The notes under the pieces were generated by a model. It was given only the letters and a program-made list of their open reading frames with translations. It was not told the origin of the DNA and ran no database searches. The position numbers and the translations under genes are program-made. A DNA stretch of 32,982 nt from Nanobdellota archaeon (GTDB lineage Archaea; Nanobdellota; Nanobdellia; Parvarchaeales; Parvarchaeaceae): positions 1-32,982 of the forward strand of contig JAKBJF010000009.1 of NCBI GenBank assembly GCA_021836125.1, written 5' to 3'. Below, one piece after another: positions 7,766 through 26,457 of this stretch; the first letter of the stretch is position 1, and each line of letters begins with the position of its first letter.

Positions 7766-10177
7766 CTACGACACAGTCTGCCAATAAGTTACATTTCTGA
7801 CTAGGGTGTTATTCGTAAAGGCAGTGATCTTATATGTGCCAGCCGATAGGGTGGAAGTATACATTGTTTTATTAATCGATAGGCTCTTTATGACTAGTCC
7901 ATTCAAAGTTATCCCCACATAGCCATAAGGAAGAGTAGCAGTGAAGTTTGAGGCCACGCCGCCTGTTATGGAACTGTTTCCGTCCAGCACGCCGTTCAAA
8001 TATAGGTAAGTCTTTCCCACTCGCCCTGAGGGCATTACGCCGTTAGGGGGGAAATCCCGTATCCTTGCCCATTTTAATGTCATCGCAAAGCCTCCCGTGC
8101 CGCCGGTATTTGTGAATTCCACGTAATTGTCAGCGGTAGCCGGCGCCTGCGCTTCTGACTGGAGAGCATATTCCTTCGACATATTTGAATAGTTCAGAGA
8201 GTATACCGCATTTTTCCCATTGTTTGAAACAGTGAATAGATCTGGCGTATTATAAGCTACATTGTAGTGGGTAGATGTAACGGAAGATCCGGAAGTAGTG
8301 TACCCCCATGAATAATTAGAGGTATACTGTGAAAGCCATCCATTTGCAGCATAATTTGCGCTGCTAGTCGGATTTGAAGAATAATAAAGTCCATTGACCG
8401 TATAAGATCGTTTTGCAGCTTCGGTAAAGTTGCCGAGCCAGTCAAGCGTAGTGTTAGCCCCGAAATAAGAATTTGAATCAATGAATTCATTAACACTCGT
8501 CGATGCGGGAAGGTACACCCCGTGGTTTATGGTGACACTGGCACTTGTCCAGCCACTCGGCGCAGAGGGACCAGTAAAATTGCTGTATAACAGGTCAAAA
8601 ACACTAGCGCCATCGTCATATTCGCCATAAATGGGCGATAACAGAGCAGATTCACCAGTCGTTAGTTTGTTGAAATCGTTCAAATTTGGATTCTGTATGA
8701 CCATGAAGACGGTCTTTGTACTTAAAGCCGGTATCGTACCCACTTTCAGCCAGTATAAACTGCTTTTAGATGCATTAGAGCCACCGTGCTCCAGCCACGA
8801 ATCGACTACCGAGCCGTTCGGCCACATGAAATAAACGTTTGTGAGGCTCTTACTCTCTGCGTAACCGTATGCGGACGAGTTTATTGTCACATTCTGCTGA
8901 AAATCGGACAGAGTGGGAACATTTTGCGCGTTAGCAAAAGTTATTGGCAGCATCGGATTCCATATATGCAGAACTCTCGCTATAGAAGAAGGCGTATAAT
9001 TCTGGTTGCCGTTTGTAGACAGATTGTAAAGATACGAACCCATATAAGTTTTGCTAGCTGTTCCCGAAAGTATGTTTTTATATATCAATGAGTTATTTAT
9101 CGACATGTTTGCAAAGAGCTGGTTATTTACCGTCGTTATGCTGAACGTAGTCGTCCTAAGTACTCTGTTGAAAGTCGTGTTTTGACTTTGGGGAAGCGTC
9201 AAAGTCAGTATAGGGACAGCTTTATCTATTATCTCCCAAAAAGTGATGTTGTTCACACCGCTGAGGTTGCTGAAAGCGGTGACTTTATACGTGCCGGCTG
9301 CCCGGAGTACCACATTTGTACTATAATTCTTTGCGAGTGGTGCGACAAGTACACCATTTACGTAAATACCGACATATATTTTTATAGTGGAAGCGGTGAA
9401 GTTTGCATCCGTCCCGTATACTATGGAATTGTTAACGTCTTCAATACTGTTTAAAAACAGATTTAGCAGCGGCTTCTTTCCAGGTATACAGCTTGGAGAT
9501 ACAATATTGTACCCAGAAGGTACAATGTCTATCAGGTACGCATTGCTAAAGGAATTCAGTGTGATGTTGCCGTTAACGGTTCCGGTTGCGCCAGTGCTGA
9601 AGAGATAGCTCTGCATCTGTTGTCCAGACGTAGAGAGAACAGTAAGATTGAATTGCACGTTTGTAAGCACAGAGCCCGAATAATTGTAGAAACTGACTAT
9701 GTACTGCATCTTGGAATTGTTGTATGTCTTGTATGAGTAATTTATGAATGATATGGGCGCGTTAACACCTATTTGTACTGCAGACGAGCCGTTGAACACA
9801 ACGGTTTTAGCGTAAGCTGTGTATACACCAGTAGTAGTCGGTAAAAGCCCTTCAAGATAGACATTAGCATAACCAACGGCGCTGTGCGAAGATTCGCTTA
9901 TTGTTATGGAATTCTGGCAGAACAGGCTGCCGCTAAGGTCAAGACTGCCAAATTGAAGGGGAAATGTCGAGATAGAACCTACTCCCTGGGATGAAACGTA
10001 GTTTGCCTCGGATACTATTGTATTAACGATGTTATTCGCTAAATTAGAGGCTGTGTTATTATTTATCGCGGATGAATATGCAAAAAGATAATACATAAAC
10101 GCCGCAATCACAGCCAAGCCTATACCTATGACTATCATGTATTCGGTATAAGTCTGCGACTTTCTGCTTTTTCGCAT
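7766..10177 (-). CDS. Large pilin-like surface protein with DUF2341-type domain
   Basis: An 803-residue secreted, membrane-anchored protein. The N-terminus is basic (MRKSRKSQTYTEYM) and followed by one hydrophobic helix (about 14-32), a class III/type IV prepilin-like signal. The rest is rich in Asn, Ser, Thr and Tyr with many N-x-S/T sites, as in glycosylated archaeal surface proteins. A mid-protein segment with YFMWPNGSVVDSWLEHGG and GEYDDGASVFDLLYSNF matches my memory of DUF2341 domains, often found in archaeal pilin and adhesin proteins. Two related beta-rich modules end in AGTYKVTAFSN...ITFWEII and AGTYKITAFTN...VTYWQTVS, the second at the extreme C-terminus, so the protein contains an internal duplication. 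No C-terminal membrane anchor is seen. Role as adhesin or pilus-tip protein is inference. Confidence 0.75.
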   Translation of the reverse strand: MRKSRKSQTYTEYMIVIGIGLAVIAAFMYYLFAYSSAINNNTASNLANNIVNTIVSEANYVSSQGVGSISTFPLQFGSLDLSGSLFCQNSITISESSHSAVGYANVYLEGLLPTTTGVYTAYAKTVVFNGSSAVQIGVNAPISFINYSYKTYNNSKMQYIVSFYNYSGSVLTNVQFNLTVLSTSGQQMQSYLFSTGATGTVNGNITLNSFSNAYLIDIVPSGYNIVSPSCIPGKKPLLNLFLNSIEDVNNSIVYGTDANFTASTIKIYVGIYVNGVLVAPLAKNYSTNVVLRAAGTYKVTAFSNLSGVNNITFWEIIDKAVPILTLTLPQSQNTTFNRVLRTTTFSITTVNNQLFANMSINNSLIYKNILSGTASKTYMGSYLYNLSTNGNQNYTPSSIARVLHIWNPMLPITFANAQNVPTLSDFQQNVTINSSAYGYAESKSLTNVYFMWPNGSVVDSWLEHGGSNASKSSLYWLKVGTIPALSTKTVFMVIQNPNLNDFNKLTTGESALLSPIYGEYDDGASVFDLLYSNFTGPSAPSGWTSASVTINHGVYLPASTSVNEFIDSNSYFGANTTLDWLGNFTEAAKRSYTVNGLYYSSNPTSSANYAANGWLSQYTSNYSWGYTTSGSSVTSTHYNVAYNTPDLFTVSNNGKNAVYSLNYSNMSKEYALQSEAQAPATADNYVEFTNTGGTGGFAMTLKWARIRDFPPNGVMPSGRVGKTYLYLNGVLDGNSSITGGVASNFTATLPYGYVGITLNGLVIKSLSINKTMYTSTLSAGTYKITAFTNNTLVRNVTYWQTVS

Positions 10178-16125: not shown

Positions 16126-17886
16126 ATGAGCAAACAAGCACCGCTGCCAATAACATTGAACCCCTCTCAACTGCAGGAAGTGAGAAAACGAGTTACTAAG
16201 ATGGGCGCAGGAGAACTCTCCGCGTTTATAAAGGAACTAAAATTAAGAGCAAGTGGCCTTAACACACACTACGGTGGACCAGTAAACATGAGATACATAA
16301 ATGATGAGGAGATACCGGATGTAGGCCTTTTGGGGAAGCCAGATGGATTTGCCGTGTCTAAAGATATAAAAAAGAGATACGAATTTCAGACGGAATATTA
16401 TTCGCTTTCACAGCAGTTCGCGTTCTTTGGTTATTCGAGGATGAAAGAGATTGAGTCTATCGATCCATCGGCCATGTCACAGATAATGTCCCTCGTTTTC
16501 GAAAAAAGAAAGATTTTCGAAGATAGGGTAATGCAGTTGATGGGCAGTATAAATCAGGTGGTTCAATCAGTATTGAGAATACTGTACGAATTAAAGGAAT
16601 TGGACAGGAACGTAATATTCTATGAGCAACTTAAATCCAAGGACCCTAAGACCATAGAAAATGCAGAGATGTCAATAAAGAGAATATTCGTAGATACAGT
16701 CGATTCTAGGAAAGGAGGGGCCAGTATGCTTTCTCTTGTAAGGGCTGCCAGTCAATCAGGCGGCGGAGGCCCCGGTTTCACTACTTTAGTCGCAGCGTTC
16801 TACTCACCAAGCATCAAGTCTGCAAAGGACGTGGATAAATTGAGTCTTAATGAGCAGGTAAAGAACATACTAAAACCAAGGGTAGAAGAATATATCCAGT
16901 GGAAGAGCATAAACGAGACGGACCTTAGAAACAGAAAATCCATGCTTTTGCAGTATCTTACCAGTCAGGTAGGTTCGTATAAGATGTATGTACAATGGGC
17001 ATCCCAGTACTTGAACATATTGAAACGAATAAACCAGGCTCCCCCACAGTCTGCTGGAAAATATATGTCATCCCTTAAGACCCCCGACATATTCAATACT
17101 GCTGTGTTTTCTTTGAATATGATGGGCTTTAAAGAGATATTTATGAGAGAGTACGACATAGAATGGTCAAGACCTTTTGGAAGTAAAGGAATACAGCTGC
17201 CGGAATCGGCGTCTCTTAAGACAAACAGCGGCGATCTTATGACGCGTGGCGGCAGGGAAACCCAGAGAAGATTCATATATGACAAGGTAAAAAAATACGG
17301 TCCTATAGTCATGAGCGCGATAGAGGCCGAATTTTCATTTAGAGAAAAACCAATACTTTCGGAAGATGTCCCGCAACAGCCACTGCAGTATGAGGGAACT
17401 CTTGATCTGAAACTTACTCCCTACTGTTTTACGTTGGAGGAATGGTACCTTTTCAAAGCAGCTCTTGAAGAACAGATAAGGAAGACCGTTTTTGCAGACA
17501 TGGACCAGGTACTAACATCTTCGCTGGAAAGCATGAAATCCGATCTTGACAAATACCTGGAAGAAGCCTCAAAGTTAAAGTTGAAGGAGGACAAACAGAA
17601 AAAACCGAACGAATTCGCACTTATGGACATATTCCAGTCCTTTAAGGAGGATTTCCTTGGAGTAACTAAGTATATACCTACTAATTTTAAATCGGAATCC
17701 CCGGAGAATCCTGAGTTTTATACACTTTATACTATGATAGTGAACAAAAGACAAAGTTTTCTTAAGATGAAGGATGCGTTAAAACTTGGTTTGTTTACGT
17801 CCATTAGCGACTCGTCACTTATATATGAGGAATTCAAGAGAAGGGTAAAGCTTTTGAACCCTCTTTCCAAGTTCGATATCTTTTGA
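16126..17886 (+). CDS. 586-residue unknown cytoplasmic protein
   Basis: I do not recognise this protein. It has no signal peptide or membrane segment and is predicted to be mostly helical and cytoplasmic. Long charged helices recur, for example around residues 100-180 and in SSLESMKSDLDKYLEEASKLKLKEDK, which looks coiled-coil. A Gly-rich loop, SQSGGGGPGF, sits near residue 215. Cysteine is almost absent (one, in TPYCFTLEEW). No Walker, DxD, zinc or nuclease motif is visible. The N-terminus contains Pro-rich and GGPVNMRYINDEE segments that resemble nothing I can name. It is divergent from the nucleotidyltransferase, and its stop abuts the helicase stop with no base between. Codon use looks like its neighbours. 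Coding is certain from length; function unknown. Confidence 0.85.
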   Translation: MSKQAPLPITLNPSQLQEVRKRVTKMGAGELSAFIKELKLRASGLNTHYGGPVNMRYINDEEIPDVGLLGKPDGFAVSKDIKKRYEFQTEYYSLSQQFAFFGYSRMKEIESIDPSAMSQIMSLVFEKRKIFEDRVMQLMGSINQVVQSVLRILYELKELDRNVIFYEQLKSKDPKTIENAEMSIKRIFVDTVDSRKGGASMLSLVRAASQSGGGGPGFTTLVAAFYSPSIKSAKDVDKLSLNEQVKNILKPRVEEYIQWKSINETDLRNRKSMLLQYLTSQVGSYKMYVQWASQYLNILKRINQAPPQSAGKYMSSLKTPDIFNTAVFSLNMMGFKEIFMREYDIEWSRPFGSKGIQLPESASLKTNSGDLMTRGGRETQRRFIYDKVKKYGPIVMSAIEAEFSFREKPILSEDVPQQPLQYEGTLDLKLTPYCFTLEEWYLFKAALEEQIRKTVFADMDQVLTSSLESMKSDLDKYLEEASKLKLKEDKQKKPNEFALMDIFQSFKEDFLGVTKYIPTNFKSESPENPEFYTLYTMIVNKRQSFLKMKDALKLGLFTSISDSSLIYEEFKRRVKLLNPLSKFDIF

Positions 17887-19416
17887 TTAAGTGAACGGTT
17901 TTAAAGTTCCGTCGTTTTTTATTAGCGAAGGGTTTTCCTTTATTTTTTGGACTATATTTTTCATTCTTTTCTCCTTTCTTTTTGATATCCAGTAATACCC
18001 TTCATCGTTCGTATCATTAGTTATAAGAACGTATACTCTACCCACATTGAAGCGCCCTACGCGTCCACGTCTCTGTATACTGCGTATTCCACTCGGTATT
18101 GTCTCATAAAAGACCGCAAGATCTACACCCTTTATAGAGATGCCCTCTTCGCTTACACTGGTGGATATCAGCGCATTGTAGACTCCTGCCTCGAAGTCCC
18201 TTACCGTAGCTATTTGCTCCTTTTGTGTCAGTCCTTTCTTTCCCTGACCTATGAATTTTACCGCATGCACATTCGGACATGAACCAAGCATCTTTTCTAT
18301 CACATCGGCCGTGTCTCTATACTGTGTGAACACTATAGCGCGTTCTGAGCCCTTTAGTTGGCTTTCAAGTATATTCTTCAGAAGCGAAAGTTTAGGATGT
18401 TCGATTCCATCACTGAGCAGGCTCTTGCTTTTTTCGTATAATTGTATTATTTCCGGATCCTTTCCGATTTCTTTGTCGGTCTTTGACTTACCCTGCTTTA
18501 TTATCTTCTCTAAAAACGCTTCGAATGCACGCAAGCTTTGCGTCGAGATCAAGTTTATTGCATGATAGATTTTTAGTATCTTCGCTGTCGCTATTATACC
18601 TCTTATCGTGTAGAACGAGCGCCCGCCCCTTATCATCTGCCCCTGCAATTTTTTCTGCAAAAGCAGTACGCTCATACGGTTTATACGGCTGTTAAGCGTG
18701 TCCTTGAAGAATCCGCTCTGTTTTAGTGAGCTTATATATGAATCTAGCACTTTCTTTGCCGATTCAGTCAGTGCTCTCAACTCTGGTTGTAAATCGACTC
18801 TAAGCTCTTCCACGAGCTTCGCCTTTATGTAAGGCTTAACGTCCGGATCATCCTCTCCGCGGATTTCAACGTTTGAGATATTCAGGTTCCTGCATATCGT
18901 TATTATTTTGTCGTGATCTGAAGCCGGAGAAGCCGTGAGCGCTATTATATTAGGGTGTTTCGACGTGTGTAAAAAAGAATCAGCTATCCTTACATAGGAA
19001 TAATTACCTATCGCATGGTGCGCTTCGTCTACGATCAATATGCTGAAATCCTCCAGATTTAGAACCTCATTTTTCAAATCGTTTTCGATTGTCTGTGGCG
19101 TAGCAAACACCACTCGGCTTTCATCGTACACTTTCTTTCTTTTCTCCTTTGATACGGATCCGCTCACGATTCCAAGAGGCAGGGACACAAATTCATCGAA
19201 AGTCCTGAAATGTTGGTTTATCAGCGGTTTCGTCGGCGCGACGAACAGAGCCTTAGAATCAGGATATTCGGATAGCCTGTAGTCTATGAGCATTATGCTT
19301 ATCATCGTTTTACCGAGGCCCGTCGGTATTACAATCAAACTGTTTTTATCCTTTGCACTGTCAACGATGCTGAGCTGATATTCTCTCCTTTCAAGATCTC
19401 TTTTTATAAAATTCAT
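17887..19416 (-). CDS. hef: Hef/FANCM-type superfamily 2 helicase
   Basis: A 509-residue DNA helicase of the archaeal Hef/FANCM family, which acts on stalled forks and branched DNA. Motif I is PTGLGKT (31-37), II is DEAH (130-133), III is TASPA (161-165) and VI is QRRGRVGR (448-455). The N-terminal REYQL is the Q-like motif, and a helical insert lies between the RecA lobes, as in Hef. The protein ends soon after motif VI, so the C-terminal ERCC4-type nuclease of euryarchaeal Hef is absent. Its start overlaps the GINS gene by four bases (ATGA), so the two are coupled. The helicase-only form also occurs in other archaea as far as I recall. Confidence 0.9.
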   Translation of the reverse strand: MNFIKRDLERREYQLSIVDSAKDKNSLIVIPTGLGKTMISIMLIDYRLSEYPDSKALFVAPTKPLINQHFRTFDEFVSLPLGIVSGSVSKEKRKKVYDESRVVFATPQTIENDLKNEVLNLEDFSILIVDEAHHAIGNYSYVRIADSFLHTSKHPNIIALTASPASDHDKIITICRNLNISNVEIRGEDDPDVKPYIKAKLVEELRVDLQPELRALTESAKKVLDSYISSLKQSGFFKDTLNSRINRMSVLLLQKKLQGQMIRGGRSFYTIRGIIATAKILKIYHAINLISTQSLRAFEAFLEKIIKQGKSKTDKEIGKDPEIIQLYEKSKSLLSDGIEHPKLSLLKNILESQLKGSERAIVFTQYRDTADVIEKMLGSCPNVHAVKFIGQGKKGLTQKEQIATVRDFEAGVYNALISTSVSEEGISIKGVDLAVFYETIPSGIRSIQRRGRVGRFNVGRVYVLITNDTNDEGYYWISKRKEKRMKNIVQKIKENPSLIKNDGTLKPFT

Positions 19417-19991
19417 ACGAACGTTGCTTTTCCGCCCTTTACTAGTATATCAGCAACGTCCTTGTCTATTTCTATTACATTCGGAAAAGAAAAAGGACCA
19501 TATGATTTGTTATTTTTCCATATGAATTTCGGCACATCGGACATTATCTTTATTACTGCCTTTTCGCTTCCGTCATCCTCTGAATCGCTTTTTTGTACCG
19601 CCTTAGGTTCAGCTTCCTTTATCTCACGTATTACCTTGCCCTTATACGAATCGATTACTTCCTTTAATTTATCAAATAGGACCACTTCTTGTGACAGCAT
19701 GTTCTGTCGCGTCTTTGGATCCAGTCCGCGTCCCTCTATCGCTATTTGCGTCAGCTTGTTTATGCGTCGATTTATTATTTTGTTCAATTCCTCTAAAGCG
19801 TTCTTTATTTTCGTGGATATTTCGGAAGCCCGATTTTCATCGTTCGATTTTTTGCACTCTTCGAGCGCTTGCTTGTTTATTGCGATGTATTCTTTCATCT
19901 CATCCAAAGTCTTGTCACTAAACGGAGTAAGTTCACCTCTGCTTTCATCTTCAGCTCTTCTTAATCTTATGAATTCGCTGTAAGTTATCAT
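19413..19991 (-). CDS. GINS complex subunit (Gins51, Sld5/Psf1 type)
   Basis: A 192-residue GINS subunit, part of the archaeal replicative helicase complex with MCM and a RecJ/Cdc45-like protein. The N-terminus (MITYSEFIRLRRAEDESRGELTPF) and helical A domain (about 1-120) are followed by an acidic linker and a small C-terminal beta domain, IMSDVPKFIWKNNKSYGPFSFP, matching the vPkFvg...yGPf pattern of the Gins51 B domain. The A-then-B order is that of Sld5/Psf1 relatives. The helicase gene overlaps its stop by four bases, placing a fork-remodelling helicase under the same control. A TATA-like stretch (GTTAATATC, about 20011-20019) lies about 25 nt upstream of the start. Confidence 0.8.
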   Translation of the reverse strand: MITYSEFIRLRRAEDESRGELTPFSDKTLDEMKEYIAINKQALEECKKSNDENRASEISTKIKNALEELNKIINRRINKLTQIAIEGRGLDPKTRQNMLSQEVVLFDKLKEVIDSYKGKVIREIKEAEPKAVQKSDSEDDGSEKAVIKIMSDVPKFIWKNNKSYGPFSFPNVIEIDKDVADILVKGGKATFV

Positions 19992-20025
19992 AGATAATCT
20001 CTATATCAATCAAGATATTAACCTT

Positions 20026-20205
20026 TTACACCCCCGCACCAGGGCCGAAAATTCCCTTGCTAAGTGCAGAGAAAAAGTTAGCAACTGGAGCGACTATAGA
20101 TGTTGGACCGACAAATATTAAATATGCTATCACTACTATCAATGCGAGAATCAGAAGTATTATATAGAATATTAAGGTCTCACTCATGCCTTTTTTATTT
20201 TTCAT
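20026..20205 (-). CDS. Pilin-like micro-protein, 59 aa (operon gene 9)
   Basis: A 59-residue protein with the class III (type IV prepilin-like) signal MKNKKGMSETLIF: basic residues, a Gly, a polar residue and Glu, then a hydrophobic helix (about 11-32). A short hydrophobic tail ends FGPGAGV and has no cysteine. ATG 20205 is chosen over an in-frame extension to 20268, which would lie inside the preceding gene. The gap to the preceding gene is 4 nt. It is last in the operon; GINS follows 34 nt later on the same strand. It may be a pilus subunit or a small membrane component. Confidence 0.75.
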   Translation of the reverse strand: MKNKKGMSETLIFYIILLILALIVVIAYLIFVGPTSIVAPVANFFSALSKGIFGPGAGV

Positions 20206-20209
20206 AAAG

Positions 20210-20353
20210 TCAAGGCAACCCCGGGATTGACGGCATAAGCTTTCCGATAAAATCCGGTGCGAACACAACCAGATAAAAAATGACTATTATCAAACATACT
20301 ATAAGAATTATAATCAAAGTTATTAAGTATTCCGTCATCCCGCGCTTATCCAT
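20210..20353 (-). CDS. Pilin-like micro-protein, 47 aa (operon gene 8)
   Basis: A 47-residue ORF beginning MDKRGMTEYLI, a good class III signal (K-R-G, then T-E-Y), followed by one membrane helix (about 10-32) containing a single Cys (C20), and a short Pro-rich tail (SIPGLP). Its first eight bases, ATGGATAA, are also the last eight of the preceding gene in another frame. There is no Shine-Dalgarno, so translation probably depends on coupling. Its similarity in layout to genes 6, 7 and 9 supports it being real. Confidence 0.75.
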   Translation of the reverse strand: MDKRGMTEYLITLIIILIVCLIIVIFYLVVFAPDFIGKLMPSIPGLP

Positions 20354-20519
20354 AGTTACTGAAGTTCATCCCAAGAGTGTATTTCATAAAGTTGGTTATT
20401 ATATTAGTTATCTTATAAGGCGTGAAGAATTCCAGCACGGCGATTACTATAATTACACATACAACTGCTACCATTATATATTCTAGCAGTTTTCCCTCCA
20501 CAGCTCCTTTTTTATCCAT
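20346..20519 (-). CDS. Pilin-like micro-protein, 57 aa (operon gene 7)
   Basis: A 57-residue ORF starting MDKKGAVEGKLLEYIMVA, again basic-Gly-polar-Glu and then one hydrophobic helix (about 14-32) with C21. The extracellular tail is amphipathic (YKITNIITNFMKYTLGMNF). Both ends use the same junction: its start ATGGATAA overlaps the stop of gene 6, and its stop overlaps the start of gene 8. Function unknown; membrane-anchored by inference. Confidence 0.72.
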   Translation of the reverse strand: MDKKGAVEGKLLEYIMVAVVCVIIVIAVLEFFTPYKITNIITNFMKYTLGMNFSNYG

Positions 20520-20682
20520 TGCCGAAAAGCCAGCTGAAAGAGACTACACTCCATAGCTCTTGGCTTACTGAAAAGCCACCTCCGCTGAAAACGATAAGTA
20601 TCAGGATTATAGCTACGAGTATTATTATCGCTATGATTATCGCTATTATCTCTGTTAATGGAAGTTCTCCCTTTTTATTCAT
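20512..20682 (-). CDS. Pilin-like micro-protein, 56 aa (operon gene 6)
   Basis: A 56-residue ORF starting MNKKGELPLTEIIAI. The helix (about 10-32) is almost pure Ile, Ala, Leu and Val. The tail FSGGGFSVSQELW continues through VVSFSWLFGNG, with aromatic residues and no Cys. Its last eight bases form the ATGGATAA overlap with gene 7. It lies 31 nt after the 143-residue Cys-rich gene. Confidence 0.72.
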   Translation of the reverse strand: MNKKGELPLTEIIAIIIAIIILVAIILILIVFSGGGFSVSQELWSVVSFSWLFGNG

Positions 20683-20713
20683 AGTATACCTATTACGTTA
20701 CTAAATTAAAGGT

Positions 20714-21145
20714 TTAGCAGTACATTGTACCGCCACCTTCTCCCCCACTGTTATAGAATGTGCCGCCGCCCGTCTTTCCGCCGCTGGTGTTACACACATA
20801 CAAATTCTGAGTATTAAGTGCTACGTTCAATATCGTAATATTGCATGATGATGCACCTGGCACATATTGACACATTTTTCCAGTCGAATTATACAAAGAA
20901 TAATTAAGTCCGGGAGTGCCCAAGGTTACCGTAACATAAAAAGAACACACGCCGGAATCTGTTATTGTGTGTGTCACAAGCTGGCATGTCGCAGGGGTAT
21001 TTCCAGGGCTTACAGTTACTGGTCCTGAGCCGAATATCGCGGCGAAGAATCCGGATATTGTAAGAATCAATACTATTACTAAGAAGATGATGACGAGCAT
21101 CAAGCTTACTATTATCTCTATCGTTGATGCAGCTTTGTTTTTCAT
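20714..21145 (-). CDS. Cys-rich pilin-like protein, 143 aa (operon gene 5)
   Basis: A 143-residue protein with a class III-like start, MKNKAASTIEIIVSLML, one membrane helix (about 9-38), and a beta-rich ectodomain. The ectodomain has exactly six cysteines, the last being the C-terminal residue (TMYC), plus a Gly-rich end (SGGKTGGGTF, SGGEGGGTMYC). N-x-S/T sites are present. Six extracellular cysteines suggest three disulfides, which is inference. It starts one base after gene 4. Not recognised. Confidence 0.75.
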   Translation of the reverse strand: MKNKAASTIEIIVSLMLVIIFLVIVLILTISGFFAAIFGSGPVTVSPGNTPATCQLVTHTITDSGVCSFYVTVTLGTPGLNYSLYNSTGKMCQYVPGASSCNITILNVALNTQNLYVCNTSGGKTGGGTFYNSGGEGGGTMYC

Positions 21146-21146
21146 A

Positions 21147-22703
21147 CTAAGAAACTACAGCGCACATATACATCTCGTTTTCGCCCAGTACGCCAGGATG
21201 GCCAAACGCATTCGATAGATAACCGCTTATGCATGAAACACATTGAGATAGACCACTGGTAGTGAAAAGTCCAGTACTTATCACATTCGTCAAATCATTA
21301 TATCCTGGTTGCAGTATGTATTGATTGCATCCGGAATTTGAACTGCAAGCTGCCGTCGTAGAACCAGCAGCAATACCCGTTACAGCTAATGCAGATACCG
21401 TTGTTATACCCAGTTTTCTTCCAGCCCCTTTGTATAAGCCATAATAGAATATTGCTGCCCTTGCACAGTAATCATAGCAGCTTCCTGGATAATTGTTAAG
21501 GTAAGTGAATGGCGCACACTCCGATGGCAGACTTATAGTACTTGGTACAAAGCGTGTCCCGGAGAGCGAATTAAGGAATAGTATATACAATTGTGCATGA
21601 CTTATACTCCTGTTTATAGCGTCTGGGGAGCTTAAAGTTTTGAAACTGCCATTTGTGTAGGGTATTTCATCTGTAGCGCCCCCAGGTCTTACATATTCGT
21701 AAGCTCCACTTGTTTTATTGACCCAAGTCATGAATAGGTTTATGCCGGGTTGAAGATAATTGAAGAAAGTCATGTTGCTGGTTATGCCGGAATTTATGTT
21801 CTCAGTCAGAGTGCAGCTAGCAGGTGCGTAAAAAGAGTCTGTGACTGAATTATATACAACAGAGCAGTTGTATTTACCAAAGCCCTGCTCAGACGTCGGA
21901 TTTTGGCTGCAAAAATTAAGGTAATACTGCGTACATGCGTTTATTGAGCCGCTAGCGTTTTCACACGCCCCCGCGCCCGAATCTGCAGTCGGTACAAATG
22001 AGCATCCAACCTGCGAACATAGATATTCAGACATATTGTTAGCTGCTGTAGTAGCTTTGTTCGGAGTGTTAAGTGGTATGTTAATAACCTGCCCCGGGCC
22101 TGCATTGTAATTCACAGAATCCTCACATTGAAAATAATTGTTTGTGGATAATTCGCAAAGGTTTGGCTGTTGAGTATCGCATGCATATCCTTTTGCGTAA
22201 TTAGGACAAGCTTGCTCTGCTGTATGTCCTACGCAACTAGGTGTAGAAGAATAAGCCGTGACGTTTAGATATTTGGTGAAGTTATAGAATGTAACGTTAG
22301 AATTAAGGTTAAGGCTTATCTCGCTACAAATTGGCGCTTGATCCTGTATTACCGCCCACCCCTGGTCGCCCCCATATTGATACCAGCAACTCGATAATGC
22401 AGTAACGATTCCTGAAAAAGCAGTATTTGCGTTGCTTCCAGAATAAGCAGAAGTAGACGGTGAACAGCCATAAAGAGGAGGTACCAACCCTAACGAATTC
22501 AAAGTACTGGAAAGACATGCCACATTGGTTACGCAAAGACCGGTGTTTATGAAGTTTCTAAGACCAGAACTTGCGAAACAGAGCGAACTATCACTAAAAC
22601 CGAAACCGAACAGCAGAAAATACGCAAATATAGATATTATTACAAACGCTATTATCGCAAAAGCTATCCAGAATACGGTGTATTCACCGCCAGTCTCAGC
22701 CAT
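21147..22703 (-). CDS. Cys-rich membrane-anchored surface protein, 518 aa (operon gene 4)
   Basis: A 518-residue protein: short N-terminus MAETGGEYTVFWIAF, one hydrophobic helix (about 9-33), then a large outside domain with 26 cysteines and many N-x-S/T sites. Cys clusters include CVGHTAEQACPNYAKGYAC and CYDYCARA, and the C-terminal quarter has C-SSNSG-C and CVSC. A hydrophobic stretch, TTVSALAVTGIAAGS (about 430), might be buried or a second helix. No enzymatic motif is visible. A TATA-like box occurs in the 41-nt gap upstream (TTATATTTAG), so an internal promoter is possible. It is the largest member and probably the structural core. Confidence 0.72.
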   Translation of the reverse strand: MAETGGEYTVFWIAFAIIAFVIISIFAYFLLFGFGFSDSSLCFASSGLRNFINTGLCVTNVACLSSTLNSLGLVPPLYGCSPSTSAYSGSNANTAFSGIVTALSSCWYQYGGDQGWAVIQDQAPICSEISLNLNSNVTFYNFTKYLNVTAYSSTPSCVGHTAEQACPNYAKGYACDTQQPNLCELSTNNYFQCEDSVNYNAGPGQVINIPLNTPNKATTAANNMSEYLCSQVGCSFVPTADSGAGACENASGSINACTQYYLNFCSQNPTSEQGFGKYNCSVVYNSVTDSFYAPASCTLTENINSGITSNMTFFNYLQPGINLFMTWVNKTSGAYEYVRPGGATDEIPYTNGSFKTLSSPDAINRSISHAQLYILFLNSLSGTRFVPSTISLPSECAPFTYLNNYPGSCYDYCARAAIFYYGLYKGAGRKLGITTVSALAVTGIAAGSTTAACSSNSGCNQYILQPGYNDLTNVISTGLFTTSGLSQCVSCISGYLSNAFGHPGVLGENEMYMCAVVS

Positions 22704-22744
22704 ACAGAATTATTAAACGGGCTAAATATAAGGTTTTTAGACTG

Positions 22745-23731
22745 TTAGCCGGGATTTGTTATGCAAACGAACACTCTGTTCTGCGCGTTTACCATAGTAT
22801 TCAAGAGTATGCCGCAGAATGGGACAGTATAATTCTCTGGTGCGCACCCCAAAATTTTCGTATTTAGAAGACTGTTAAAACCTCCAATCAGTCCGTTGCT
22901 AAGTGAACTTACAGGCATTGTTGTTGCGGCTGCAGAATAGTTAGCGTAACTGCATACAGACGCTCGTTCAGATGACGTTATGTTCGGTTGTGCGAATTTC
23001 GAATCATAGTAACATGAAGAAGCCCAGTTTATAGGGCAGGCAAAAGAGACCACAAGTGTAGGATTTGGTATCGCACCAGGTGCTGGAAATGATAGCGAAA
23101 CAGATGCACCGGGATATCTGAAGTATACAATATCATAATACGAACCATTTTCAACGTGCGCCGATGTATTAGTATAATTAGCCAGTTCTCCGCTGCCATT
23201 CGTTATAAGAACTATCTGCAATGGGCTGTTCGGGTTGTAATAATTTTTATCAATGTAATTTATTACGTTGCTGAAGTTGCTTATATCGCCGCTTTCATAA
23301 TTGTATATCTTGCCATAATAGCAATTGAATATGTCATTGAAATTGCCCTTGCTTAAAAGCGTATTTCCAGTCTGTTGGTTGTTTCCGGCAAACAGATCAA
23401 AGCATGATGCAGCCTTTCCATATATTTGAGTCGCAATATCTGCCGTGCTGTATGCGTTTATGTTGCTTTCGGTTATGCACGCAGATTGTATTTGTGCAGC
23501 GGAAGCACTGCTTGGGGAAAGATAATTGAAACCCACTGCGCTTATAAACGATGTGAACGGCTCAAGATAACTATTAACAAGGTTGTACTCGACGAAAGCG
23601 AAATAACAGTTGAAACCGAAACTGAGAGCACCTGTAGACATCGAGAACACCAATACGACTACAAACAAAATAACACCAGCTATGCTTATTATCAATATTT
23701 CTATGAATGTGAGCCACATCCCGCTTGCCAT
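22745..23731 (-). CDS. Cys-rich membrane-anchored surface protein, 328 aa (operon gene 3)
   Basis: A 328-residue protein with an N-terminal helix in a class III-like setting (MASGMWLTFIEILIISIAGVI and on to about residue 31) and an ectodomain with ten cysteines. The segment SPLQIVLITNGSGELANYTN resembles a beta-strand-rich fold, but no family is recognised. Asn and Tyr are abundant and N-x-S/T sites frequent. It shares one base with the preceding micro-gene (TGATG), and a GGAGGAGG stretch just upstream, in the end of gene 2, may act as a Shine-Dalgarno. Confidence 0.72.
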   Translation of the reverse strand: MASGMWLTFIEILIISIAGVILFVVVLVFSMSTGALSFGFNCYFAFVEYNLVNSYLEPFTSFISAVGFNYLSPSSASAAQIQSACITESNINAYSTADIATQIYGKAASCFDLFAGNNQQTGNTLLSKGNFNDIFNCYYGKIYNYESGDISNFSNVINYIDKNYYNPNSPLQIVLITNGSGELANYTNTSAHVENGSYYDIVYFRYPGASVSLSFPAPGAIPNPTLVVSFACPINWASSCYYDSKFAQPNITSSERASVCSYANYSAAATTMPVSSLSNGLIGGFNSLLNTKILGCAPENYTVPFCGILLNTMVNAQNRVFVCITNPG

Positions 23732-23892
23732 CAGCCGCCTCCTCCGAATATATTAGAGAATAATGAAAAAGGAGACTGTGTGTTGATCTGGGCATAATAC
23801 AGTGCAACAATGACTATTGTCATAACTATTAAGCCGGCTATCACTGCGATTAACCATATTATTCTCCATTCTATGTCTCCTTTATTATTCAT
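23731..23892 (-). CDS. Pilin-like micro-protein, 53 aa (operon gene 2)
   Basis: A 53-residue ORF starting MNNKGDIEWRIIWLIAVIA (basic-Gly-polar-Glu, then helix about 11-34), with a tail ending FSNIFGGGG. It has no Cys. It lies 3 nt after gene 1 and overlaps gene 3 by one base. Its Gly-rich C-terminus encodes the GGAGGAGGCGGC stretch that precedes gene 3. It is similar in design to genes 6-9. Confidence 0.72.
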   Translation of the reverse strand: MNNKGDIEWRIIWLIAVIAGLIVMTIVIVALYYAQINTQSPFSLFSNIFGGGG

Positions 23893-23895
23893 ATT

Positions 23896-24396
23896 TTACT
23901 GTCCTAGGCACGGGGCGCAATACTTACTGTCTCCAGGTATGCATTGCGGATTTGATATGTCACAACTCTGTATTTGCGTTGCGTTATCTGCCACAATAGT
24001 GCTTTTATCGCAGCTTTCCAATGCCGCTGTATTCGAAGGGGACAAGTTGCTGCATGCGGCAAGTACGCCCGGGGGCGGGTTGCTTATACAGTTAAGAGCA
24101 GCATTTTGGTTTCCACTGTAATTGTAATAACACCAGTGCGTTATGCACGTGGATTTAGCAGTCTGTTGGTTATAACAACAATCGGTGAGATAAGACCGGA
24201 ATAATGCGGTGCCTTCATATCTATTTGGCCACCCGTATTGTGCGGCAGTAAATTGGTTCTCGCACAGATTGTTTTGGTTAGGCCCTATAAATAGGGCTGC
24301 AGAAAAACTCGCTGAGAATTCTAAGAATATTATTACTGCTACTACAATGGCGAACAATACCCCTATAAGTATGAATTCTTCAGCGCTCGTCTGCAT
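23896..24396 (-). CDS. Cys-rich pilin-like protein, 166 aa (operon gene 1)
   Basis: First gene of the operon: 166 residues, starting MQTSAEEFILIGVLFAIVVAVIIF, with one membrane helix (about 8-26) and an ectodomain with twelve cysteines, including the CC pair in LTDCCYNQ and the C-terminal KYCAPCLGQ. Spacing of the C-terminal cysteines is fairly regular. A TATA-like stretch, TTAAAATATTAA (about 24415-24426), lies 20-30 nt upstream. No known family is recognised. Confidence 0.72.
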   Translation of the reverse strand: MQTSAEEFILIGVLFAIVVAVIIFLEFSASFSAALFIGPNQNNLCENQFTAAQYGWPNRYEGTALFRSYLTDCCYNQQTAKSTCITHWCYYNYSGNQNAALNCISNPPPGVLAACSNLSPSNTAALESCDKSTIVADNATQIQSCDISNPQCIPGDSKYCAPCLGQ

Positions 24397-24987: not shown

Positions 24988-25425
24988 TTAATTGTTTACA
25001 GTACCGGTTATGTTTATCTCAACATTGCTGAATGAGATGTTTGTGGGCGTATACTCTATGGTTATAGTCGCGGTGAACGGCGACGGCAGAGAAGAAACGG
25101 AAAGATTACATTCAGTGTAATTAAGTGCCGGTACGAACGTATTGGTACACAGAATCCCGTTGGTATTTATGCTGTTCCCGCTAAAGTATATATTGGTAAG
25201 ATTTATATTCTCATTCAGCAGATTTTGGAATTTTATAATAAAATTGCCATTAAGGTAGCCCTGCTTTACAACGTTAAGCCCCGGGAATCCGTTGGTATAG
25301 GGGTTTGAAGGGCTGCCGAAAGCCTGCGGATAAAATATGTATATGACCGCAAGTGCAACTGCTATAGTGGTGAACGCCACACTATAAACCAATAATTGTT
25401 CTATAGCTATCTGCCCTTTTCTCAT
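24988..25425 (-). CDS. Class III signal peptide pilin-like protein, 145 aa
   Basis: A 145-residue protein with a textbook archaeal class III signal: MRKGQIAIEQLLVYSVA, with KG|Q and Glu at +5-like position, then a helix through about residue 31. The ectodomain is rich in Asn, Thr and Ile, has N-x-S/T sites and two cysteines, and looks like an immunoglobulin-like beta sandwich (FIIKFQNLLNENINLTNIYF, TATITIEYT). Archaeal proteins of this shape are small pilins or surface subunits. It is a separate unit with its own AT-rich upstream box (about 25450-25460). Confidence 0.82.
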   Translation of the reverse strand: MRKGQIAIEQLLVYSVAFTTIAVALAVIYIFYPQAFGSPSNPYTNGFPGLNVVKQGYLNGNFIIKFQNLLNENINLTNIYFSGNSINTNGILCTNTFVPALNYTECNLSVSSLPSPFTATITIEYTPTNISFSNVEINITGTVNN

Positions 25426-25725: not shown

Positions 25726-26457
25726 TTAATTCCTAATCGACGCTATATTGCTGGCAATTTGCATGAAAGATGCAGCCGTCTTACTTTTAGTGTTCAAAAC
25801 AGTTATTGGAGTGCCAGTCATCAGTGCACGCGACATTTTTGGTTCTTCCGGTACCTCACCAACTATCTTTGTCCTTACCATATGTTCAATGTCGCTCTTC
25901 GACATGTTAGACTCGTTTTTTATGTTGACTTTGTTTATGACTATACCGAGGACTTTAATCTTGTTCTCTTCAATTTTTTCTTTAAGTTTTTTAGCTTCTA
26001 TTACGGATGTTATCTCCGGTAAAGTTACAAGAAGAACGTTAACGTCGTTTATAAGTTTTATAAAGTCCAGACTGCTGGATGGTCTCGAATCTAGCACTAC
26101 AAAATCGTATTTGTCGCGTATCTGATTCAAGTGATGAAAAAGATTTATTAATTTGTAATCCGCGTTTCCATCACCAAGTTTCTTAAATATCCTTGAAGGT
26201 ATTATATCCAGACTTATCTTATCGTTGTGATATATCGCTTTTTCCATCTGTACAGTCCCGTTTAGGACGTCTTGAAGTGCGTAGTTGAAGTCGCTAAAAC
26301 CGTAATGCACAGCTACGTGAGGAGTCTCTAAGTTCGTGTCTATTATCAGCACTTTATGATTCAACAAAGCCAAAGCCATCGCGATATTTATCGAAGTAGT
26401 AGTCTTGCCGACCCCTCCCTTCGGGCTCATTATAGCGATTACCGTTGCCTTTTTCAT
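25726..26457 (-). CDS. ParA/MinD-family ATPase
   Basis: A 243-residue deviant Walker A ATPase. The signature is KGGVGKTT (13-20), with the signature lysine, followed by DTNLETPHV (switch I region) and FVVLDSRPSS (Walker B/switch II; the Walker B Asp is kept). The VINKVNIKN segment binds adenine in relatives. Such proteins position cell-division, chromosome or surface machinery at the membrane or nucleoid. There is no ParB or MinE partner nearby, and the C-terminus is not clearly an amphipathic membrane-targeting helix. A TATA-like block (about 26470-26490) lies upstream. Role cannot be fixed; proximity to pilin-like genes may be coincidental. Confidence 0.88.
   Translation of the reverse strand: MKKATVIAIMSPKGGVGKTTTSINIAMALALLNHKVLIIDTNLETPHVAVHYGFSDFNYALQDVLNGTVQMEKAIYHNDKISLDIIPSRIFKKLGDGNADYKLINLFHHLNQIRDKYDFVVLDSRPSSSLDFIKLINDVNVLLVTLPEITSVIEAKKLKEKIEENKIKVLGIVINKVNIKNESNMSKSDIEHMVRTKIVGEVPEEPKMSRALMTGTPITVLNTKSKTAASFMQIASNIASIRN

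Follow-up and report, generated by a model that had tools for sequence, protein, structure and literature searches.

The window, by which we mean the whole stretch of 32,982 nucleotides analysed here, carries at positions 20026-24396 nine consecutive open reading frames on the minus strand, which encode, in transcription order, proteins of 166, 53, 328, 518, 143, 56, 57, 47, and 59 aa. We refer to these genes as g166, m53, g328, g518, g143, m56, m57, m47, and m59, the number giving the length of the product in aa. The intergenic distances, in the same order, are +3, -1, +41, +1, +31, -8, -8, and +4 nt. An earlier reading of this DNA from its letters alone (hereafter the sequence-only reading) had described nine consecutive minus-strand genes of these lengths with gaps from -8 to 41 nt, all of which was confirmed by our check of the open reading frames. 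Each of the nine proteins has a single N-terminal hydrophobic helix.

The first gene, g166 (23896-24396), codes for an N-terminal anchor and a Cys-rich ectodomain with 12 Cys and is followed by m53 (23731-23892), whose product is a 53-aa micro-protein with a class III-like signal (K-G/A, then E). The 328-aa protein encoded by g328 (22745-23731) also has an N-terminal anchor, together with 10 conserved Cys. The product of g518 (21147-22703) combines the anchor with a large Cys-rich ectodomain and is a candidate tip or minor pilin, and g143 (20714-21145), which shows the clearest pilin signature, is a candidate major pilin. Micro-pilin candidates are encoded by m56 (20512-20682), with a conserved C-terminal SFSWLFG, m57 (20346-20519), with a conserved FTPYK after the helix, m47 (20210-20353; KRG-MTEY...), and m59 (20026-20205; KKG-MSET...).

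None of the nine proteins scored above the Pfam cut-off, in agreement with the earlier statement that no ectodomain is recognised, and no NCBIfam match was obtained for the four proteins tested (g143, m47, m59, and g518). PilA-like sequence was likewise not recognisable, either by Pfam in any of the nine or by NCBIfam in these four. The five micro-proteins gave no Flp/Fap match in Pfam at E values up to 1 and resemble Flp in size only. No pilus ATPase, TadC or prepilin peptidase was seen among the open reading frames of the window, as the sequence-only reading had also stated.

Conservation and organization of the gene cluster

Nearly all of the 26 other genomes of the genus and the 4 other genomes of the family carry the nine genes as orthologues whose order is conserved; where genes are absent at a few loci, this mostly coincides with contig ends. 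The search with g518 found a counterpart, complete or in part, in 25 of the 26 genus genomes and in all 4 family genomes. Conserved clustering in relatives, on which the sequence-only reading had staked its proposal, is therefore evident from synteny. The median dN/dS lies between 0.03 and 0.10 for every one of the nine families, the micro-proteins of 47-59 aa included (m53, 0.096), which indicates that all nine are real proteins under purifying selection. Together, the order conserved across relatives and the low dN/dS values indicate that the nine-gene arrangement is not a product of chance.

The flanks of the cluster are syntenic across the family: rpl15e, pil145 (a PilA-like gene), a zinc-ribbon gene, and a gene for a MinD-like ATPase adjoin one end, whereas GINS and Hef adjoin the opposite end. 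The PilA-like pilin pil145 (MRKGQIAIEQLLVY...) is encoded at 24988-25425 of the window, is syntenic with rpl15e, the zinc-ribbon gene, and the MinD-like ATPase across the family, and likely belongs to a second, canonical type IV pilus (T4P). The MinD-like ATPase (25726-26457), which scores 154 bits against TIGR01969 and thus below the cut-off of 201.75, is syntenic near the subunit module and could position the pilus. Tandem small membrane proteins without known homologues are also what an integrated virus or plasmid island might contain. However, throughout the family the cluster is conserved vertically, in synteny, and as a single copy, with rpl15e, GINS, and Hef around it, its genes are under purifying selection, and no viral fold match was found; comparison of the g518 AlphaFold model with viral structures gave no significant match. 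We rejected a viral or mobile origin because of the vertical synteny, and its probability is close to nil.

In most relatives, g166 and g518 are each preceded, at a distance of about 25-30 nt, by a TATA-like element. In the window, such an element, TTATATTT, falls within the 41-nt gap between g328 and g518 (22704-22744, minus strand), about 26 nt upstream of the ATG of g518; most of the relatives inspected have an A/T-rich, TATA-like element at this distance, and the gap is a probable promoter of a second transcription unit. Relative to g166-m53-g328-g518-g143, most members of the genus have the block m56-m57-m47-m59-GINS-Hef in inverted orientation. Because of these TATA-like elements and the inversion that sets the m56-m59 block apart, the nine genes probably form two or three transcription units rather than the single nine-gene operon that had been proposed. 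The segment of the window inverted with respect to most of the genus, with m56-m59, GINS, and Hef, spans 16126-20268. In most relatives, m56 comes after a sequence matching the end of a 586-aa gene.

Class III signals and conserved cysteines

A K/R-[GA] site is kept in the orthologues of m53 (26/26), m56 (28/28), m57 (24/27), m47 (26/27), and g143 (24/28), and in these five families G and A interchange at the same position of the site. The consensus of the g143 family, K-[G/A]-x-S-x-x-E, places Glu at +5, the classic pattern, and the micro-proteins mostly have E or D at +3. In contrast, the site is absent from g166 and g328, is found in only 2 of 27 g518 orthologues, and is present in 11 and absent in 16 of the 27 m59 orthologues. 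The polar start with Glu or Gly/Glu attributed to all nine proteins in the sequence-only reading is thus not uniform: the site is conserved in m53, m56, m57, m47, and g143, mixed in m59, absent from g166 and g328, and nearly absent from g518. Some g518-profile matches in other families still begin with MDKKA, MINKKG or MKKG, which suggests that g518 may have lost a cleavage site.

The large proteins are rich in Cys, with 12 residues in g166 (7.2%), 10 in g328 (3.1%), 26 in g518 (5.0%), and 6 in g143 (4.2%), compared to 0.66% in the other window proteins tested. In g166, g328, and g518 the numbers are even and nearly invariant: 12 Cys were counted in 23 of 25 g166 orthologues, 10 in 24 of 26 g328 orthologues, and 24 in 22 of 27 g518 orthologues. 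The 25 g166 sequences share 31-63% identity. Two Cys of g166 shift together between orthologue groups, since the window and the loci L036 and L045 have LCEN and DCCY where the others have VGC and FRCY; this joint shift suggests that the two residues form a disulfide pair.

AlphaFold models of g518 and g166 (mean pLDDT 75.5 and 71.7, respectively) consist of the N-terminal helix followed by domains without known relative. Compared with the PDB, neither model gave a significant fold match or a known pilin or adhesin fold. Searches of PDB sequences with the g518 and g143 profiles retrieved no pilin, g143 giving a sub-significant flagellin match (E 0.42), and when the g143 profile was compared with that of the major-pilin-like KAQGLP proteins of other families, the signal helix alone was aligned, with 18% probability. 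As the models show domains without known relative, a tip role of g518 is a candidate assignment based on size, Cys content, and position.

Motor, peptidase, and accessory genes in the same genome

The sequence-only reading also depended on a pilus motor and a peptidase elsewhere in the genome. The assembly, which is 66% complete, does encode an ATPase of the pilus type, a platform protein of the TadC type, and an A24 peptidase. The ATPase (746 aa) and the platform protein (696 aa) are encoded as a pair on another contig (L058). We use the name TadCx2 for such platform proteins of about 700 aa with two TadC-type halves in tandem. The ATPase matches PF00437 (T2SSE) with 61.4 bits (cut-off 24.9), and its nearest solved structures are archaeal GspE (2oap), CpaF, and FlaI; against the NCBIfam FlaI equivalog it scores 127.9 bits, far below the cut-off of 550 for an archaellum-type FlaI. 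The ATPase and TadCx2 are 51 and 35% identical, respectively, to their counterparts at locus L045. For the 690-aa TadCx2 of L045, T2SSF gave a weak match that stays below the cut-off (E 6e-4; 20.2 bits, cut-off 25.2), and BLAST showed similarity to a TadB-like protein of the window's own genome. With modest statistical support, the 696-aa protein therefore appears to be a polytopic platform protein (GspF/TadC/FlaJ).

An A24 prepilin peptidase was detected above the PF01478 cut-off at G000:C24:50996, and such a peptidase was found above cut-off in 27 of the 31 genomes searched. The same contig carries three tandem accessory genes for proteins with 4-5 transmembrane helices (4-5-TM), two of them recognised with an accessory-family profile and the middle one by position and topology. 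Encoded in tandem at L125:3937-5825 are three 4-5-TM proteins whose family, as yet uncharacterised, precedes the T4P ATPase in other families and has matches in 27 of 31 genomes. In the window's family, the island is thus broken into at least three loci, namely the motor, the accessory genes, and the subunit module of the window.

Just upstream of the ATPase, L058:5016-7442 encodes an 808-aa protein with a secretion signal that looks, by eye, like a sedolisin-type peptidase, and a gene of similar size occupies the same place in L127 and L128. Very large surface proteins of 803, 883, and 1144 aa, with archaellin/pilin-like N-termini (SQTYTEYM, QSALEYMMTYGWAI), are encoded at 7766-10177 of the window, L058:2292-4943, and L125:5917-9351, respectively. 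The genome also has a second, canonical T4P motor at L057:8946-12414, comprising an ATPase of 507 aa, a TadB-like protein of 299 aa, and a TadC-like protein of 344 aa.

Homologous subunits follow the motor genes in other families

Of 280 genomes of the class, 270 have TadCx2, representing 186 of 191 genera. A draw of 119 genomes at the level of the phylum, which turned out to consist of members of the same class throughout, had it in 117. At most of the roughly two dozen TadCx2 loci that we read, the ATPase adjoins TadCx2 and a run of single-helix proteins follows. These runs contain two sorts of proteins, micro-proteins of 40-66 aa and larger, often Cys-rich ones, and most of the islands are preceded by 4-5-TM proteins and coiled-coil genes. 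At four distant loci (L113, L115, L116, and L118) no single-helix run was seen beside TadCx2. The islands L089 and L092 include an A24 peptidase-like gene, judged from the start of the sequence; that of L089 has no NCBIfam family match.

Homologues of the g518 profile were found in 47 of the 280 class genomes, distributed over 17 genera. In genome G052, from another family of the class, a 751-aa secretion ATPase and a 690-aa TadCx2 are followed directly by a g166 homologue and then by a 44-aa micro-protein, a 287-aa protein, homologues of g518 and m56, a micro-protein, KAQGLP pilins, and further micro-proteins. The g166 homologue is the first gene downstream of TadCx2 in G055 and G042 as well. 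At L045, homologues of g166, g518, and m56 come after the ATPase and TadCx2, with the m56 homologue next after g518. In all 12 genomes outside the window's family that have a g518-profile match and TadCx2 on one stretch, the match lies 0.36-4.6 kb downstream of TadCx2 on the same strand; these genomes belong to other families of the same class, and their tandem-TadC gene of about 700 aa adjoins a secretion ATPase of about 750 aa. This set leaves out G042 and G085, which have short contigs, and G236 and G130, whose matches are doubtful. The weak g518-profile matches of the latter two (E about 6e-4) were discarded, as their stretches carry no TadCx2 and one has an internal stop.

Because homologues of g166, g518, and m56 directly follow the ATPase and TadCx2 in other families, the island appears to be the pilin/minor-pilin module of a phylum-wide, Tad/archaellum-like type IV filament machine that is unlinked from its motor here. 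The sequence-only reading had put forward a candidate new surface system and had noted that no motor gene is in the window; a new, motor-less system is not sustained, since these homologues sit within T4P islands. In the window's family, motor and subunit genes are unlinked and their pairing rests on synteny in other families. The second motor could be considered as the one that assembles the nine proteins, or both motors could share them: it is present in the genome, and archaeal ATPase/TadC modules have been argued to be able to use pilins encoded in trans (PMC4858521). However, the homologous subunits adjoin the 750-aa ATPase and TadCx2 in every other-family case with both on one stretch, and the second motor has better candidate substrates in PilA-like proteins, pil145 among them. 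We regard assembly by the second motor as distinctly improbable.

The separation of motor and subunits could also mean that motor dependence was lost in the window's family and that the proteins form a static, disulfide-linked membrane assembly, such as an S-layer anchor or a host-contact patch. The ectodomains are large for pilins, and the three largest subunits, as well as m59 in half of the genus, have no peptidase site, which would fit such an assembly. Nevertheless, m53, m56, m57, m47, and g143 retain the K/R-G/A site with its G-to-A interchange, and the ATPase/TadCx2 pair and the peptidase are kept throughout the family, making a static assembly unlikely.

Discussion

Our analysis indicates that the products of the nine genes are very probably the subunits, exposed at the envelope, of a DPANN-type type IV filament machine, the motor genes of which lie elsewhere in the genome. 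Sequence comparison reveals the ATPase, TadCx2, the A24 peptidase, and three 4-5-TM proteins in the same genome, and motor and subunits as one island in related families. The unlinked position of motor and subunits in this family, the second motor, the missing K/R-G/A site in g166, g328, and g518, the lack of a known fold for the g518 and g166 models, and the alignment of g143 with KAQGLP proteins over the signal helix alone count against this assignment. The core of the sequence-only reading, a disulfide-rich surface apparatus of pilin-signal proteins in a DPANN archaeon, is supported, although g166, g328, and g518 lack the class III signal.

The type of system is already known. Makarova et al. 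(2019) described a DPANN island with TadC and unassigned "dark matter" proteins that were proposed to be pilins (PMC6393860). Like the genes described here, such islands combine a secretion ATPase and TadC with many signal-bearing proteins without detectable relatives, predicted to be diverse pilins; here, in contrast, motor and subunit genes lie apart, and conservation delimits one set (g166, g328, g518, and the micro-pilins) that can be followed from family to family. Makarova, Koonin and Albers (2016) noted that archaeal pilins can be encoded in trans and reported that, for one nanoarchaeal ATPase, they were unable to identify the cognate pilins (PMC4858521). The present system shares with archaeal T4P the ATPase, TadC (one or two), pilins with class III signals, and the A24 peptidase, but differs in that the TadC halves are fused in one protein of about 700 aa and in having four Cys-rich large subunits and five micro-proteins (PMC4858521). 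In the open-access literature, we found no paper describing the present subunit set, its Cys conservation or its separation from the motor.

Filament assembly by the nine proteins is predicted from the genes. The subunits would be inserted N-in/C-out via the first helix, and the A24 peptidase would trim those with a K/R-G/A site (m53, m56, m57, m47, and g143). ATP hydrolysis, relayed through TadCx2, would then lift the subunits out of the membrane, so that g143 and the micro-pilins, which are of Flp size, build up a helical stalk. The Cys-rich g166, g328, and g518, either uncleaved or with divergent signals, might assemble into a priming or tip complex, held together by disulfides, through which partner cells are contacted.

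Bacterial Tad/Flp pili are built with a CpaF-type ATPase, a TadB/TadC platform, pilins of about 50-60 aa, and larger minor pseudopilins. The system described here resembles them in its CpaF-type ATPase relative, platform, and subunit sizes, whereas its micro-proteins have no Flp Pfam match, its context is that of an archaeal single membrane, and its ectodomains are Cys-rich. Each island encodes several pilin-like proteins of differing size, with many minor-pilin-like subunits and few candidates for an abundant major pilin, as might also be expected of a pseudopilus-type secretion or uptake system (T2SS/Com-like) instead of an extended adhesive pilus. On the other hand, our analysis identified neither a dedicated substrate nor a partner, and the KAQGLP pilins occur in several copies in other families, as expected of a filament. 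We therefore find a pseudopilus less convincing, if conceivable, and favour a filament.

A host-contact function of this filament is a plausible hypothesis. In Nanoarchaeota, a FlaJ/TadC gene with many non-synonymous SNPs has been suggested to play a role in symbiosis (PMC6142677), and pili-like connections have been imaged between ARMAN and Thermoplasmatales cells, where several of the described structures belong to the partner (PMC4110969). For Saccharibacteria, ultrasmall episymbionts, two distinct T4P systems are reported to drive episymbiosis (PMC12206443); these are bacterial systems, and the analogy is one of lifestyle. We tentatively raise the possibility that the 750-aa ATPase, TadCx2, and the set of Cys-rich and micro-proteins constitute a type IV filament class of their own that defines the phylum in these DPANN archaea. 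It would be the central organelle of host contact, with a tip stapled by disulfides and a core of micro-pilins that no solved pilus resembles.

It has long been asked by what means DPANN archaea hold on to their hosts and exploit them. Since 270 of the 280 class genomes sampled, strongly reduced ones included, have kept this pilus-like machine, it is a leading candidate for the contact apparatus, and a conserved subunit set with defined cleavage sites and Cys pairs makes this question directly testable.
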